Shown: piece by piece, positions 17,141 to 25,685 of the stretch | Layout: the number at the start of each line of letters is the position of its first letter | How positions within the stretch are numbered: position 1 is the stretch's first letter | Assembly: GCF_001669775.1 (NCBI RefSeq) | Contig: NZ_LXWK01000015.1 | Location: 124,001 to 188,000, forward strand | Direction of reading: 5' to 3' | DNA from: Rheinheimera sp. SA_1 | Lineage (GTDB): Bacteria; Pseudomonadota; Gammaproteobacteria; Enterobacterales; Alteromonadaceae | Length of the DNA: 64,000 nucleotides | Position numbers and translations under genes: made by a program | Notes under the pieces: model-generated | The model's database searches: none | The model's input: the letters and a program-made list of their open reading frames with translations, nothing else | Told to the model about the DNA's origin: nothing

Positions 17141-18565
17141 TTGGCGGCAACTTTTTACTTTCACGATTATGAAACCTGGGGCGCAGATCCGAAAAAAGAT
17201 CGACCAGCGCAATTTGCCGGATTACGTACCGATCTCGCGTTAAACCCGCTTGGCGAAGCGCAGATGTGGTACTGCCAACTGGCTGCGGATTATTTACCGC
17301 ACCCGGTCGCAGCGTTAATCACCGGTTTAACGCCCCAGTTATGCAATCAGAAAGGCTTGCCGGAAGTGCAGTTTATGCAGCGGATTTTGCAGGAATTCAG
17401 TACTGCTGAAACCTGTGTGGTTGGTTATAACAATCTGCGTTTTGACGACGAAATCACCCGCTATAGTTTGTGGCGGAATTTTCTTGACCCTTACGGACGT
17501 GAATGGCAACAAGGTAACAGTCGCTGGGATTTAATTGATGTAGTTCGTGCCTGTTATGCCTTGCGTCCGGAAGGCATTCAATGGCCAAGACACGACAACG
17601 GCAACCCAAGTTTTCGCCTTGAAGATTTGACCAAGGCTAATGGCCTGGAGCACCAGCATGCACACGATGCGCGCTCAGATGTATATGCGACAATCGGCAT
17701 CGCAAAACTGGTGCAACAAGCGCAGCCGAAGCTGTTTCAATACTTATTCGAGAATCGCAAAAAACAGCAAGTGCAAGCGCTGATTGATGTGGCCGGTATG
17801 ACGCCGCTGGTGCATGTGTCGTCGAAGTTTCCGGCAAGTCAGGGCTGTTGCAGTTGGATAGTGCCTTTGGCTTTTCATCCGACCAATAAAAATGCCGTGA
17901 TCTGTTTTAACTTACAGTCTGATCCACGCTTGCTCGCGGATTTAACCATTGAGCAGCTCAATGAACGGCTATACCGTAAAACGACAGATTTAGCTGATGA
18001 TGAACCAAGACCAGGCTTAAAGCTGGTGCATTTGAATAAATGTCCGGTGCTGGCCAATGCCAAAACCCTATCCGAAGCGCGCGCAGTTGAACTCGGGATA
18101 GACCGTAAAGCTTGCCTGGTAAATCTTGACTGGTTAAAACAAAACCGCCAGCTCCAACAAAAAGTGGTAGTGCTTTATCAGCAGGCCGCTGAATTTAAAG
18201 CTGAGACAAACCCGGATTATATGCTTTATCAAGGCTTTACTTCGGACAACGACAAACAACAAATGCTACGTCTGCACCAGTTAGCGCCTGAGGCACTGCA
18301 GGGACATAGTATTCAGTTTCAGGATGACCGGCTCAATCAATTACTGTTCAGGTTTCGTGCCCGGAACTACCCGCACACCCTGACGTTTGACGAAATGGAA
18401 AAATGGCGGCGTTATTGTCATGATAAATTGACGCTGGGTTTGGACCAGCCGGCATTAACTTTTGAAGATTTCACGCTGGCGCTGGAAAGTGCGGCAGAAA
18501 GTCAGCAAAACGACCCGAAAAAAATGCAAATATTGCAGGCCTTGTATCGGTTTGTAAGCGGTTAA
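17141..18565 (+). CDS. sbcB: Exodeoxyribonuclease I
   Basis: 474 residues from TTG 17141, nearly the same length as E. coli exonuclease I (475). The open frame continues to 16715 without a stop, but that extension is antisense to the nuclease gene and contains the promoter, so it is not coding. Homology begins at FHDYETWGADPKKDRPAQF, which holds the DEDD nuclease Asp and Glu. VGYNNLRFDDEITR and AHDARSDVYATI complete the 3'-5' exonuclease site, followed by the SH3-like and C-terminal helical domains (KLVHLNKCPVLAN). It degrades single-stranded DNA 3' to 5' in recombination and mismatch repair. No ATG or GTG lies near the conserved start, so TTG (or ATT 17138) is forced. Confidence 0.92.
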   Translation: MAATFYFHDYETWGADPKKDRPAQFAGLRTDLALNPLGEAQMWYCQLAADYLPHPVAALITGLTPQLCNQKGLPEVQFMQRILQEFSTAETCVVGYNNLRFDDEITRYSLWRNFLDPYGREWQQGNSRWDLIDVVRACYALRPEGIQWPRHDNGNPSFRLEDLTKANGLEHQHAHDARSDVYATIGIAKLVQQAQPKLFQYLFENRKKQQVQALIDVAGMTPLVHVSSKFPASQGCCSWIVPLAFHPTNKNAVICFNLQSDPRLLADLTIEQLNERLYRKTTDLADDEPRPGLKLVHLNKCPVLANAKTLSEARAVELGIDRKACLVNLDWLKQNRQLQQKVVVLYQQAAEFKAETNPDYMLYQGFTSDNDKQQMLRLHQLAPEALQGHSIQFQDDRLNQLLFRFRARNYPHTLTFDEMEKWRRYCHDKLTLGLDQPALTFEDFTLALESAAESQQNDPKKMQILQALYRFVSG

Positions 18566-18791: not shown

Positions 18792-19589
18792 ATGAACCAA
18801 CATCACGATACACAAACCACAGATGTAACTGCGACCCCTGCAGTTCTGCCACAGGAACAGGCTCCTGGGTTGTCACGTCGTAAGTTTTTAACCCGCGCTG
18901 GTGTGGGTTCTTTACCCGTTATCATGTCAATCAAAAGCGGTAGTGCCTGGGGTTGTATTGATCTGAAATGTACGCCTGGTGAAACCAGCCTGAGTAACTC
19001 AGGTTCTGCGGTTGCATCAGCAACATCCACCAGCGATGGCAAACCAGCAGCTTATAAAAAGCCAAAATGGTCGACCATTAAAATCATCAAAGATGTCTTC
19101 AGTGTTGATTTTAATGATTATTTGTTAGCCACTTATCAGTACACGCTGTACACCAAATCAGGCAGCAAATACACCGAAATCTCCAAGAACAACTGTAAAA
19201 GCTGGTGGACAACCGTTAAAGCTTCTACTTGCTACACCAAAAAGAGCAACTCAAATTATCCAAAATTTACCGGCACTAAACGTGAACCAGGTATGTTTGG
19301 AACTAAAGTGCTGATCAATACCACCAAATTCTCTGACATTTTTGGTACTGGTACCACGTCAAATTTCCTGACATGCCTGAGCATGAACGATACGCTGGAA
19401 CAGTATTTGGTTGCAGCCTTTATCGGTGCAGTCTGGGAACGTCACACTGAATACCGTAACCAATACGGCAGCCGTGAATTGTGTTACCCGGCACCACAAG
19501 ACCTGATTGATGCTTATCAGGACGCATTAAACCGTGACAATGGTCTCGAAGATTTACGGACTTTATTAAAGTTCTATACCATCGGTTGA
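18792..19589 (+). CDS. RR-motif (Tat-like) protein of the HPr-rel-A cassette, unknown function
   Basis: 265 residues, not matched to any characterised family. Residues 1-26 are polar. A twin-arginine-like motif LSRRKFLTRAG (27-37) leads into a short, weak hydrophobic stretch (GSLPVIMSIKSGSAWGC, 39-55), a pattern I associate with Tat-type precursors that end in SGSA. A Ser/Thr-rich linker (61-83) and a folded-looking domain (91-265) with aromatic strands and the helix MNDTLEQYLVAAFIGAVWE follow. Cysteines at 55, 60, 135, 147, 195 and 231 suggest disulfides, hence export. It is the first gene of a four-gene cassette with an HprK-like kinase. It could be the cassette's substrate; that is inference. 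It looks more AT-rich in codon choice (AAA, ACC/ACT, AAC/AAT) than its neighbours. Confidence 0.8.
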   Translation: MNQHHDTQTTDVTATPAVLPQEQAPGLSRRKFLTRAGVGSLPVIMSIKSGSAWGCIDLKCTPGETSLSNSGSAVASATSTSDGKPAAYKKPKWSTIKIIKDVFSVDFNDYLLATYQYTLYTKSGSKYTEISKNNCKSWWTTVKASTCYTKKSNSNYPKFTGTKREPGMFGTKVLINTTKFSDIFGTGTTSNFLTCLSMNDTLEQYLVAAFIGAVWERHTEYRNQYGSRELCYPAPQDLIDAYQDALNRDNGLEDLRTLLKFYTIG

Positions 19590-19596
19590 TGATAGC

Positions 19597-19782
19597 TTGC
19601 ACAAACCTCAATCCCCTGCCCCGGACTATGCGAAAAGCATCCTCCGGGGTTGTCATTCTGCGACATTAACACTCACCACCGACGACAACTCGGGTGTGGT
19701 CTGTTTTGATGTATTTACGCAAGATACATGGATCCAACTGCCCGAAACTGCTAACGTAACCACTTCTTCAGTAGAAAATTGA
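19597..19782 (+). CDS. Short PqqD-like ORF (possibly truncated HPr-rel-A PqqD protein)
   Basis: 61 codons from TTG 19597, seven bases after the RR-protein stop and six before the kinase ATG. The segment SGVVCFDVFTQDTWIQLPE resembles the two beta strands of PqqD-type peptide chaperones (pattern VV-x-FD-x(4)-DT-h-x-L), and position between these genes is where HPr-rel-A systems carry a PqqD protein. Usual members are ~85-95 residues with a winged-helix half after these strands; here the frame stops after TTSSVEN, so that half is missing. No in-frame ATG or GTG exists and the ribosome site is weak. It may be a minimal functional peptide-binding protein, a decayed gene, or chance. Confidence 0.4.
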   Translation: MHKPQSPAPDYAKSILRGCHSATLTLTTDDNSGVVCFDVFTQDTWIQLPETANVTTSSVEN

Positions 19783-19788
19783 TCATCA

Positions 19789-20643
19789 ATGACAACAAGT
19801 TTTGTGCTGGCCTCTGCCCCTTTTAATTTTCAGGTCAATACCAGTGGCTCTGTGTTGTATGATCAACTACAACAACTTTATCCATCGTCGGTACTTCAAA
19901 GCACACCTGCATCTGACATTGTTGATTTTCAAATTGACTTCAAAAAGAATTGGTTATCATTAAGTCAGAGCTACGCCTTTAAATTGGGTCAGCATCATTT
20001 TCGGATGACCGCCAAACCACAGTTACTCAGTGTATTTGAATGGGGTTTAAACTGGGCGGTGTCTTCGTATCAAAACCGCTACCTTTGCATTCACGCCGCG
20101 GTGCTTGAAAAAAGCGGCATCAGTCTGATTTTGCCGGCGCCACCCGGCTCTGGCAAAAGTACCTTATGCGCGCTGTTGATGTTGTCTGGCTGGCGTTTGT
20201 TATCGGATGAACATTGCCTGATTGATCCACAAACCGGATTAATTTTACCCTTTGTGCGGCCGATCAGTTTAAAAAACCGCTCCATTGCCGTGCTCAATCA
20301 ACGTTATGCCAAAAATATTGTGCAATGTGTGGTGCCGGATACTTTTAAAGGCACTATCGGTTATTTACCACCCACCGCAGAAAGCTGGCAGTTGATGCAT
20401 CAGCCGGTGCAACCTGCTTATGTGATTTTCCCCAAATACAATGCCAATGTTGCTGCCACAGAATTCTCCGGTATTGCTCAAAGCCAGTTGTTCATGCAGT
20501 TGGCAGTGAACTGTTTTAACTACACAGTGTTGGCAGAAGTGGGGTTTGAAACTTTGGGACGTTTAGTAAAGCAAGTGGTCGGGATCCGGTTGGAATATGC
20601 AGATACCGACGAGGCTTTGCAGCTGATTGCGGAGCTTGACTGA
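19789..20643 (+). CDS. HprK-related kinase A
   Basis: 284 residues. The C-terminal two-thirds match the HPr kinase/phosphorylase fold: IHAAVLEK (~101-108), Walker A APPGSGKST (117-125), LLSDEH (138-142) where HprK has its catalytic Asp region, and PFVRPISLKN (154-163). The N-terminal ~80 residues are specific to the related-A group. True HprK phosphorylates Ser46 of HPr, but no HPr, PTS or crh gene is nearby. Relatives in lasso-peptide clusters (PadeK type) phosphorylate a precursor peptide serine. The last gene overlaps by the TGATG junction, so they are co-translated. Substrate unknown. Confidence 0.87.
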   Translation: MTTSFVLASAPFNFQVNTSGSVLYDQLQQLYPSSVLQSTPASDIVDFQIDFKKNWLSLSQSYAFKLGQHHFRMTAKPQLLSVFEWGLNWAVSSYQNRYLCIHAAVLEKSGISLILPAPPGSGKSTLCALLMLSGWRLLSDEHCLIDPQTGLILPFVRPISLKNRSIAVLNQRYAKNIVQCVVPDTFKGTIGYLPPTAESWQLMHQPVQPAYVIFPKYNANVAATEFSGIAQSQLFMQLAVNCFNYTVLAEVGFETLGRLVKQVVGIRLEYADTDEALQLIAELD

Positions 20644-21755
20644 TGACGCCTGTCTGCCTGCAACTGCTGCAAAATCCAGCACAATTTATTAAGAATGCCA
20701 GCACACAGCAATGGACCGACTTCATTCATCAGGCGCGGGAACAAGCACTGCTTGGCAGTTGTTATTTCCTACTGCAGGATGCTGGTTTATATGATGCGAT
20801 CCCGGATAAAGTAAAAACACATTTATATTCCGGTTATATCTACGCGCAAAAACAAAAAATCAGTTTAATCAAAGAAATGCTGAAACTGGAACCCTTTTTC
20901 AGCGACGCGCCTTATCCATGTGTCTTGCTCAAAGGCTGTGCTTACCGACTGACTGAATTGGCGATGGCCCGAGGCAGGGTCTTTTCTGACATTGATATTC
21001 TGGTGCCACAGCAGCAGTTTCCGGATGCATTGCAACGGTTAAATGAAGCCGGTTTTATTGAATTTGGGATGTCGGATTATGACCGGCGTTATTACTTACG
21101 CTGGTCGCATCAACACCCGCCGTTAATTCACTATCTACGTGGTGTGTCCATCGATTTGCACCATCATATTTATCCGGTGTCGTCGCAGGAAAACATTCTC
21201 ATTGAGCCGATGCTGCGTCAGTCGATCCCGCTGGCGGGTTCGTCCTTTGCCGTGCCGACCAAAGCACTGATGTTTGTGCATGCCTGTGTGCATTTGTTTT
21301 ATCAGGATGAAACCCATAAGCTGGTCAAAGACTTATGGGATTTATACCAGCTATATCTGGATGCAATTGCTGAAGGTGAAACGGACATCGTACAAGCCGC
21401 GACTGATTTAAATGCGCAAGCTGCGGTCTATTATGCCTTTGATGTACTCGAATGGTTGTTCCAGATAAACGTTTCCGCGCAGGCACTGAGCCAGTTAAAA
21501 CCTTTTGCCAACCACTCACAGCGTCGTTCCATGCGTTGGTTATTAGCCCAATTGTTCAACCCCCAAAGTAGCTGGTACCGACTGGCACATATCTGGTGGA
21601 CCATTCGCGGGCATCTGCTGAAAATGGGTCCAATGACGCTGCTCTATCACAGTGTTGCCAAGTCGGTGGAACAATATCGCGAACGGCGTATTCACACCAA
21701 GCAGCAGCAACAACAAGATGCGCTGACCAAACCCAAAGATGCTGGTTTTCAGTAA
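20643..21755 (+). CDS. Nucleotidyltransferase of the NTP_transf_5 type
   Basis: 370 residues. The core signature is VLLKGCAYRLTELAMARGRVFSDIDILV (split here: LLKG at 95-98; GR-x-x-SDIDILV at 111-121), in which Asp116 and Asp118 would bind the metal and nucleotide. This is the uncharacterised nucleotidyltransferase family regularly found beside HprK-related kinase A. A helical C-terminal region (LMFVHACVHLFYQDE onward) resembles substrate-binding parts of minimal nucleotidyltransferases. The tail is Gln/Lys-rich. ATG at 20643 shares its A with the kinase stop. The acceptor of any nucleotide transfer is unknown. Confidence 0.82.
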   Translation: MTPVCLQLLQNPAQFIKNASTQQWTDFIHQAREQALLGSCYFLLQDAGLYDAIPDKVKTHLYSGYIYAQKQKISLIKEMLKLEPFFSDAPYPCVLLKGCAYRLTELAMARGRVFSDIDILVPQQQFPDALQRLNEAGFIEFGMSDYDRRYYLRWSHQHPPLIHYLRGVSIDLHHHIYPVSSQENILIEPMLRQSIPLAGSSFAVPTKALMFVHACVHLFYQDETHKLVKDLWDLYQLYLDAIAEGETDIVQAATDLNAQAAVYYAFDVLEWLFQINVSAQALSQLKPFANHSQRRSMRWLLAQLFNPQSSWYRLAHIWWTIRGHLLKMGPMTLLYHSVAKSVEQYRERRIHTKQQQQQDALTKPKDAGFQ

Positions 21756-21909: not shown

Positions 21910-21916
21910 CGGCGCT

Positions 21917-22001
21917 CTTGTCGGAGTGCCCACTTGGGCTGAGACCGCGTTACGCGGGATCCGTTGAACCTGATCAGGTTAGAACCTGCGAAGGGAACAA
22001 G
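21917..22001 (+). promoter_or_regulatory. TPP riboswitch (THI element)
   Basis: The conserved THI box is plain: GGGCTGAGACCG, then CCGTTGAACCTGATCAGG, then TTAGAACCTGCGAAGGGAA. P1 is closed by CTTGT (21917-21921) with ACAAG (21997-22001). The aptamer binds thiamine pyrophosphate and represses the thiamine genes that follow. It is the only aptamer in the window and lies 189 bases before thiC. Confidence 0.97.
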
Positions 22002-22059
22002 GGTAATGTACCCGGAGTTTTTCCCATATTTAGACCATTTTTCGGGTCATTTTTGGGAT

Positions 22060-22166: not shown

Positions 22167-25685
<3,519 letters not shown>

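Follow-up and report, generated by a model that had tools for sequence, protein, structure and literature searches.

Partitioned into four tightly packed genes, a cassette at positions 18,792 to 21,755 of a 64,000-nucleotide stretch of the Rheinheimera sp. SA_1 genome (hereafter the window) encodes, in order, a secreted-type protein with a twin-arginine (RR) leader, a small protein, an HprK-related kinase of type A (kinase A) and a nucleotidyltransferase of the NTP_transf_5 family (Table 1). The open reading frame (ORF) list of the window gives gaps of 7 and 6 bases followed by a TGATG overlap, in which the start of the nucleotidyltransferase gene lies over the kinase stop; all four genes, their positions and their spacing are exactly those of a preliminary description of this DNA, and its assignments of the kinase and the nucleotidyltransferase are borne out by the family models. 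The products have 265, 61, 284 and 370 residues, respectively, and the start codon is ATG throughout, except for the TTG of the small ORF. The ratio of non-synonymous to synonymous substitution rates (dN/dS), from a comparison with two relatives (L023 and L025), is 0.02-0.04 in the nucleotidyltransferase, 0.03-0.04 in the kinase (with saturation in one of three pairs), 0.06-0.07 in the RR gene and 0.31-0.59 in the small ORF. Purifying selection thus acts on all four genes and is weakest on the small ORF. The gene order recurs in many Pseudomonadota.

Table 1. Features of the cassette, in window coordinates.
Feature	Positions	Strand	Basis
RR-leader secreted-type protein, proposed substrate	18792..19589	+	ORF; profile-conserved partner of kinase A; no Pfam/NCBIfam family
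Tat-type leader SRRKFLTRAGVGSLPVIMSIKSGSAWG, codons 28-54	18873..18953	+	R29 in 98% and R30 in 100% of 117 RR proteins
S-x3-S-x3-S in disordered linker, codons 68-76; proposed phosphorylation sites S68/S72/S76	18993..19019	+	invariant in 37 aligned homologues
Folded core, codons 90-265, homologous to the 'SPGYWKN' core of other RR proteins	19059..19586	+	hhalign
61-aa ORF in PqqD slot, putative eroded PqqD keeping the β-hairpin only	19597..19782	+	weak hhalign match; dN/dS
HprK-related kinase A (TIGR04352)	19789..20643	+	267.4 bits, cut-off 200; invariant catalytic residues
NTP_transf_5 nucleotidyltransferase (PF14907)	20643..21755	+	133.8 bits, cut-off 31.2; conserved Asp

The RR Gene as Partner of Kinase A

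Kinase-A loci (142 in all) came from the window, from 12 regions of relatives, from a list of the best 80 among 576 confirmed loci and from a further sample of the phylum, leaving 134 that are non-redundant at 98% kinase identity and 57 clusters at 60%. Taking the best 80 of the confirmed loci biases the sample to near relatives. The preliminary description had staked its proposal on the RR gene not being absent from nearly all other kinase-A clusters; an RR-leader gene in fact adjoins the kinase in 129 of the 134 loci. A profile trained on all data places the RR gene upstream of the kinase and on the same strand at 117 loci, and five-fold cross-validation by the 60% kinase clusters does so at 116 (E<1e-3) or 118 (E<1e-2). 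The ORFs searched, from a file of 10,468, gave only two other matches, both of them RR genes beside the same kinases, one lying downstream (L093) and the other on the opposite strand (L122). Nine of the 17 loci without an upstream match (L144-L152) carry a short, divergent RR gene of alphaproteobacterial type, recognised by a profile of its own for which four of the nine RR genes also served as training set. One locus (L024) is cut by a contig end that leaves the C-terminus of the RR protein (47.8% identity over 67 residues), and in four more (L135, L136, L137 and L140) the RR gene is elsewhere in the genome (G106, G118, G059 and G300).

Kinase A exceeds its cut-off in 61 of 398 genomes of the phylum, and an alignment of RR proteins (A2) matches 52 of the 398 at E<=1e-6, a line picked after the table was seen: 50 of the 61 kinase-A genomes and 2 of the 337 others. 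At E<=0.01 the matches rise to 106 genomes, many of them probably due to generic signal sequences; Fisher tests on these counts do not take relatedness into account. The two matches outside the kinase genomes (G038 and G316) cover only the second half of the protein, the GYW core of other secreted proteins (see below), and have no leader. Eight of the 11 kinase genomes without a match at E<=1e-6 have a divergent RR gene (G061, G256, G262, G274, G315, G333, G361 and G380), another (G082) has an RR match in its kinase locus (L112), and in G224 the kinase is truncated at a contig end. Among 40 relatives the kinase occurs in 13 and the RR profile matches in 14, namely 12 of these 13 together with G002 (E 0.009) and G038 (core of a large secreted protein); in the thirteenth, G018, a contig end cuts the locus. 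The RR protein of the window is 96% identical to a protein of Rheinheimera riviphila. The partnership of RR gene and cassette is solid.

Leader, Serine Signatures and Core of the RR Proteins

As judged from their alignments, the RR proteins combine a conserved leader with widely differing cores, and most of them have one of two serine signatures. Single scans of fifty diverse members placed them in no Pfam or NCBIfam family; the stray matches, to three NCBIfam and two Pfam models, concern one member each at E 0.0028-0.0096. The near-invariant twin arginines are followed, in the 117 aligned members, by a hydrophobic stretch, a small residue at the would-be signal peptidase site and then a Cys (97%). 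The landmarks singled out in the preliminary description, SRRKFL, SGSA and a Ser/Thr-rich stretch at residues 61-83, are all present in the window protein. At the end of the signal peptide, SGSA is no more than a local variant of a sequence that elsewhere mostly reads S-[RK]-P-[VA]-[WL]-A. The Ser/Thr-rich linker contains three serines, S68, S72 and S76, which do not vary among 37 close homologues, some of them as little as 29% identical to the window protein, and which are 84-89% conserved in the full alignment.

Two signatures can be distinguished by regular expressions, which were written after the sequences had been viewed. Of the 117 RR proteins, 69 have S-x3-S-x3-S (tri-Ser) after the leader, where shuffled sequences would give 9.75; among other windows of 50 residues, 8 of 206 contain it. 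In the GYW group (34 members) the equivalent serines S67/S71/S75 are at least 90% conserved. The motif C[WF]xS[FLMIV] lies near the C-terminus in 21 of the 24 RR proteins that came from the phylum sample and in none of 93 others (shuffles 0.0); one of the three lacking it, at L131, seems to be read to the contig end. Tri-Ser is found in 2 of these 24 proteins versus 69 of the 93 others. The C-terminal motif is also present in 6 of 9 alphaproteobacterial-type RR proteins, or in all nine if Tyr is allowed. In a quick tree of the kinases, one clade of 96 rows holds 69 tri-Ser and no C-terminal types, a second of 26 rows holds 21 C-terminal and no tri-Ser types, and the alpha-type clade of 12 rows holds nine C-terminal types and one tri-Ser.

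AlphaFold2 assigns residues 1-89 of the window protein a predicted local distance difference test score (pLDDT) below 50 and residues 90-265 mostly above 90, while the predicted structure of a GYW member is mostly of low confidence to about residue 80 and folded from about residue 83. The two cores are homologous (hhalign of A3 against A4, probability 98.0, E 2e-13, 63 columns); no PDB chain resembling either of them was found, and no Pfam model matched the GYW core in the RR proteins scanned. Many RR proteins share this core ('CTPGYWK' or 'CTLGYWK'), and some larger proteins that look secreted have it as their C-terminal part (L171:842-3094 and L172:1487-2353). As a separate observation, the synonymous rate (dS) of the leader region (18792-19037, RR codons 1-82) is well below that of the next core segment (0.20 versus 0.54 against L023, and 0.59 versus 2.56 against L025), as if recombination or a constraint at the RNA level had acted on it.

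The PqqD Slot

The label of PqqD-like, previously given to the small ORF, could not be upheld with family models: it has no Pfam match at E<=10, and the only NCBIfam match is an irrelevant one of 11.6 bits to an ornithine carbamoyltransferase model. The protein seems eroded to a β-hairpin. In other species the same slot is filled by PqqDs of the TIGR04353 family, with 74.9 bits at L045, 62.9 at L014 and 41.1 at L166 (cut-off 35), that of L016 not reaching the cut-off. In the Rheinheimera/Arsukibacterium group the slot holds an ORF of 54-77 residues that is missed by our own PqqD profile. Its hairpin, [IV]CFDxxTxxTW, aligns with the canonical SGDTH hairpin (hhalign E 0.0029 in one comparison, probability 10.6%, hairpin only), a weak indication that the ORF may be an eroded PqqD.

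Over the whole survey, a PqqD-like ORF lies upstream of the kinase or is fused to it in 105 of 134 loci. At L093 (3377-4681), the locus with the relocated RR gene, the PqqD-like domain is fused to the N-terminus of kinase A. In six genomes an RR gene stands apart from the kinase, and in five of these the next gene is a PqqD (G106, G162, G300, G059 and, for its second RR gene, G220), G118 being the exception. No other observation hints as strongly at an action of PqqD on the RR protein as this adjacency away from the kinase. Binding of leader peptides by relatives of PqqD is stated in PMC7533575.

The Enzymes

Five kinase residues, H102, K123, D140, E141 and K162, are invariant in all 134 kinases, and the window kinase has the Walker A Lys, the His and the acidic pair of an HprK-type Ser kinase. 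For the kinases of lasso peptides, the relevant passages of PMC9266682 describe a need for His-Lys-Asp-Asp and phosphorylation of a C-terminal Ser. A nucleotidyltransferase-like ORF of the NTP_transf_5 type accompanies 122 of the 134 kinases, and 11 of the 12 loci without one have only 1.5 kb of flank; D116, D118 and D171 are each found in 102 of 106 relatives. The same passages present PsmN either as placing hexoses on the phosphoserine of pseudomycoidin or as a nucleotidyltransferase after which a host enzyme acts (PMC9266682).

Proposed Function and Alternatives

What does a kinase and nucleotidyltransferase pair do beside an exported protein? With modest confidence, we favor the cassette being a protein-tailoring system that resembles those of ribosomally synthesized and post-translationally modified peptides (RiPPs), with the RR protein as the substrate that is phosphorylated on Ser and then capped before export. 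The proposal builds on the conserved partnership, the RR-PqqD pairing, the conservation of leader and serines, the catalytic residues and a disordered linker beside a confidently predicted core. The long N-terminal leader would carry a signal of the twin-arginine translocation (Tat) type (S-R-R-x-[FL]), and the PqqD-type protein, reduced in the window, would hold this leader and present the RR protein to the kinase in the cytoplasm. The kinase would phosphorylate Ser. In the window, the likeliest targets are one or more of S68, S72 and S76, in the linker that joins the leader to the folded core; in another branch of the family the target would be the Ser of a C-terminal [ST]C[WFY]xS[FL] motif. 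NTP_transf_5 would then attach a further group, either nucleotidyl or hexosyl, to this phosphoserine, as PsmN reportedly does on pseudomycoidin, and the finished, folded protein would be exported and cut after SGSAWG. Proteins that are modified and fold inside the cell would naturally leave it by the Tat route. The preliminary description had already taken the RR protein for the substrate; its membership in the cassette stands, its role as substrate is likely, and the chemistry (phosphorylation, its site and the second group) is a reasoned guess. The RR protein may perhaps belong to the cell surface or matrix, since the genomes with kinase A and those with the exosortase XrtA overlap.

Several points weigh against this proposal. 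The PqqD that should bind the leader is unrecognisable by models in the window, and leader recognition there is therefore uncertain. The window protein scores 12.8 bits on the generic Tat-signal model TIGR01409 (cut-off 16.7), so that the RR motif is real and Tat export is only predicted. Profile searches found no RR gene in the kinase genome G248 (L154), and 34 of the 134 loci have neither serine signature by regular expression, a count that includes loci with no RR protein in the set. The match between signatures and kinase clades agrees with a pairing of kinase and substrate, but plain common descent alone may explain it. The evidence comes from sequences and models, and kinase A could act on a small molecule.

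In the last case, the kinase and nucleotidyltransferase might make or activate a small phosphorylated cofactor that PqqD carries or inserts, and the RR protein would be exported as the apoprotein for this cofactor. Cofactors are common in Tat substrates, the RR protein has both a Tat-type leader and a folded core, and such small-molecule chemistry is compatible with the two enzymes. However, the cores are strongly different (GYW, Rheinheimera type, CWxSF and Cys-rich) and no binding site common to them was seen, the conserved elements being the leader and the short Ser motifs; with PqqD relatives binding leader peptides (PMC7533575), we consider a cofactor unlikely. Alternatively, the set could serve the XrtA exopolysaccharide system, its enzymes coupling a polysaccharide sugar-phosphate to the RR protein as a matrix protein. 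XrtA is over cut-off in 35 of the 398 genomes, and kinase A occurs in 25 of these versus 36 of the 363 others (relatedness ignored), the two lying within 60 kb of each other in 7 of the 25. Polysaccharide-type genes, recognised by eye, are near some loci, and the GYW core recurs in the larger secreted proteins of L171 and L172. Yet XrtA is not over cut-off in 36 of the 61 kinase-A genomes, the window genome has kinase and XrtA on different contigs (C12 and C16), and no PEP-CTERM end was seen by eye in the RR proteins examined, no dedicated test having been run; a dedicated matrix module is, in our view, more doubtful still than a cofactor.

A role in defence, with the RR protein as an exported effector that the kinase and nucleotidyltransferase neutralise, would suit the variable cores and the patchy presence of the cassette (10 of 22 same-genus genomes, including that of the window). 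None of the four proteins has a PADLOC match at E<=0.01, though, the cassette is without a transporter or immunity gene, and a leader conserved across classes with varying cores fits a maturation system better, all of which makes a toxin-immunity function very improbable.

Returning to the tailoring proposal, a broader form of it can be put forward more tentatively, as a serious possibility that we would not yet back. Kinase-A cassettes may be the core of a widespread, undescribed class in Pseudomonadota of Tat-exported "phospho-RiPP" proteins with about 110-220 residues after the leader. PqqD would read the twin-arginine leader, which would serve both export and enzyme recruitment, and the HprK-like kinase and NTP_transf_5 would assemble a group attached through phosphoserine, either in an S-x3-S-x3-S linker or in a C-terminal [ST]C[WFY]xS[FL] tail; in Zetaproteobacteria, one branch would add radical S-adenosylmethionine (SAM) chemistry on a Cys-rich core. 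No description of an RR-cassette system was found in the open-licence papers searched. HprK_rel_A, PqqD_rel_X and NTP_transf_5 are named families with no known substrate, and a partner gene in 129 of 134 loci, with its leader and named serines, makes the function of the cassette directly testable. If the proposal is true, Tat export would be joined to modification guided by a RiPP recognition element (RRE), and the phospho- and hexosyl tailoring of lasso peptides would extend to whole secreted proteins in environmental and biofilm-forming bacteria.

Relation to Known Systems

The closest named relative is the HPr-rel-A system (TIGR04352 HprK_rel_A, TIGR04353 PqqD_rel_X and PF14907), with which the window shares a kinase over cut-off, an adjoining NTP_transf_5 and a PqqD slot between the RR gene and the kinase. 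It differs in that this slot holds a degenerate ORF with no match to TIGR04353 (cut-off 35), and neither NCBIfam nor Pfam gives a match for the RR gene, which is present at 129 of 134 loci. Because the window PqqD fails TIGR04353, we class the cassette among variants of the HPr-rel-A system, with a proposed mode of action like that of a RiPP tailoring pathway. The features of a RiPP whose precursor is guided by PqqD or another RRE, a conserved leader and a variable core beside the RRE, are found in the family, the RRE being degenerate in the window.

The tailored lasso peptides paeninodin (PadeK) and pseudomycoidin (PsmK/PsmN) likewise combine an HprK-like Ser kinase and a nucleotidyltransferase with B1 proteins of the PqqD type (PMC9266682 and PMC7533575), and the catalytic set common to them and the cassette is H-K-D-[DE]. 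The resemblance to lasso-peptide clusters that had been pointed out earlier holds for the enzymes and does not extend beyond them. No other gene-sized ORF lies between the genes flanking the cassette, so that, by the ORF list (no lasso model was run), it contains neither a lasso cyclase nor a leader protease, in agreement with the preliminary description. Moreover, the precursor in the window is a Tat-type protein of 265 residues with a predicted fold, and the candidate sites are internal or C-terminal Ser motifs. Some Tat substrates have dedicated leader-binding chaperones, and an RR leader with a small leader-binding partner is common to them and the cassette; here, however, the partner is of the PqqD type and Ser-modification enzymes are added.

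Radical-SAM Relatives in Zetaproteobacteria

RiPP clusters with radical SAM/SPASM enzymes and PqqD, including SynChlorMet (ScmC, ScmD and ScmF models), provide a further comparison. The window cassette has no radical SAM gene, and the ScmC model gives its kinase 26.3 bits, below the cut-off of 125. Zetaproteobacterial relatives, in contrast, combine radical SAM/SPASM, PqqD, HprK-like kinase, NTP_transf_5 and an RR peptide. Weak RR matches within about 3 kb of weak kinase matches occur in 11 genomes of one family, from which seven regions were fetched (L155-L161). All six candidate proteins tested from these regions are radical SAM enzymes, with SPASM over cut-off in five and just under it in L159; PF05402 PqqD is over cut-off in all three proteins tested (L158, L159 and L161), and the single NTP_transf_5 candidate tested also exceeds its own (L158, 118.5 bits). 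The kinase-like protein of that locus reaches 48.2 bits on TIGR04352 and is therefore a relative of that family, not a member.

RR peptides of 122-158 residues are present in six of the seven regions (two in L155 and none in L160). Among the L158 peptide and its 51 homologues, those named being from Ghiorsea and another Zetaproteobacterium, the two arginines are found in 51 and 52 of 52 sequences, about 14 Cys are conserved, and so are S61, S62 and S90. On these sequences, the clusters display this kind of RR leader in a RiPP-type setting. Taken by themselves, L155-L161 (for example L158:2009-6059), with radical SAM/SPASM, PqqD, HprK-like kinase, NTP_transf_5 and a Cys-rich RR peptide, look like an undescribed RiPP family.

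Surroundings of the Cassette

The cassette is flanked on the left by a gene ending at 18565, which we take to be of the exonuclease I type, and on the right by a gene starting at 22191, presumably of the thiC type, with a thiamine pyrophosphate (TPP) riboswitch at 21912-22013 upstream of the latter. In three same-genus genomes (L016, L017 and L018) the same site between exonuclease-type and thiC-type genes holds a cassette with a GYW-type RR protein and a kinase only 33-36% identical to that of the window. A lipoprotein-like gene with a GLDP[KN]EAN motif, absent at the site in the window, lies directly 3' of the nucleotidyltransferase gene in L019, L021, L022 and L024.

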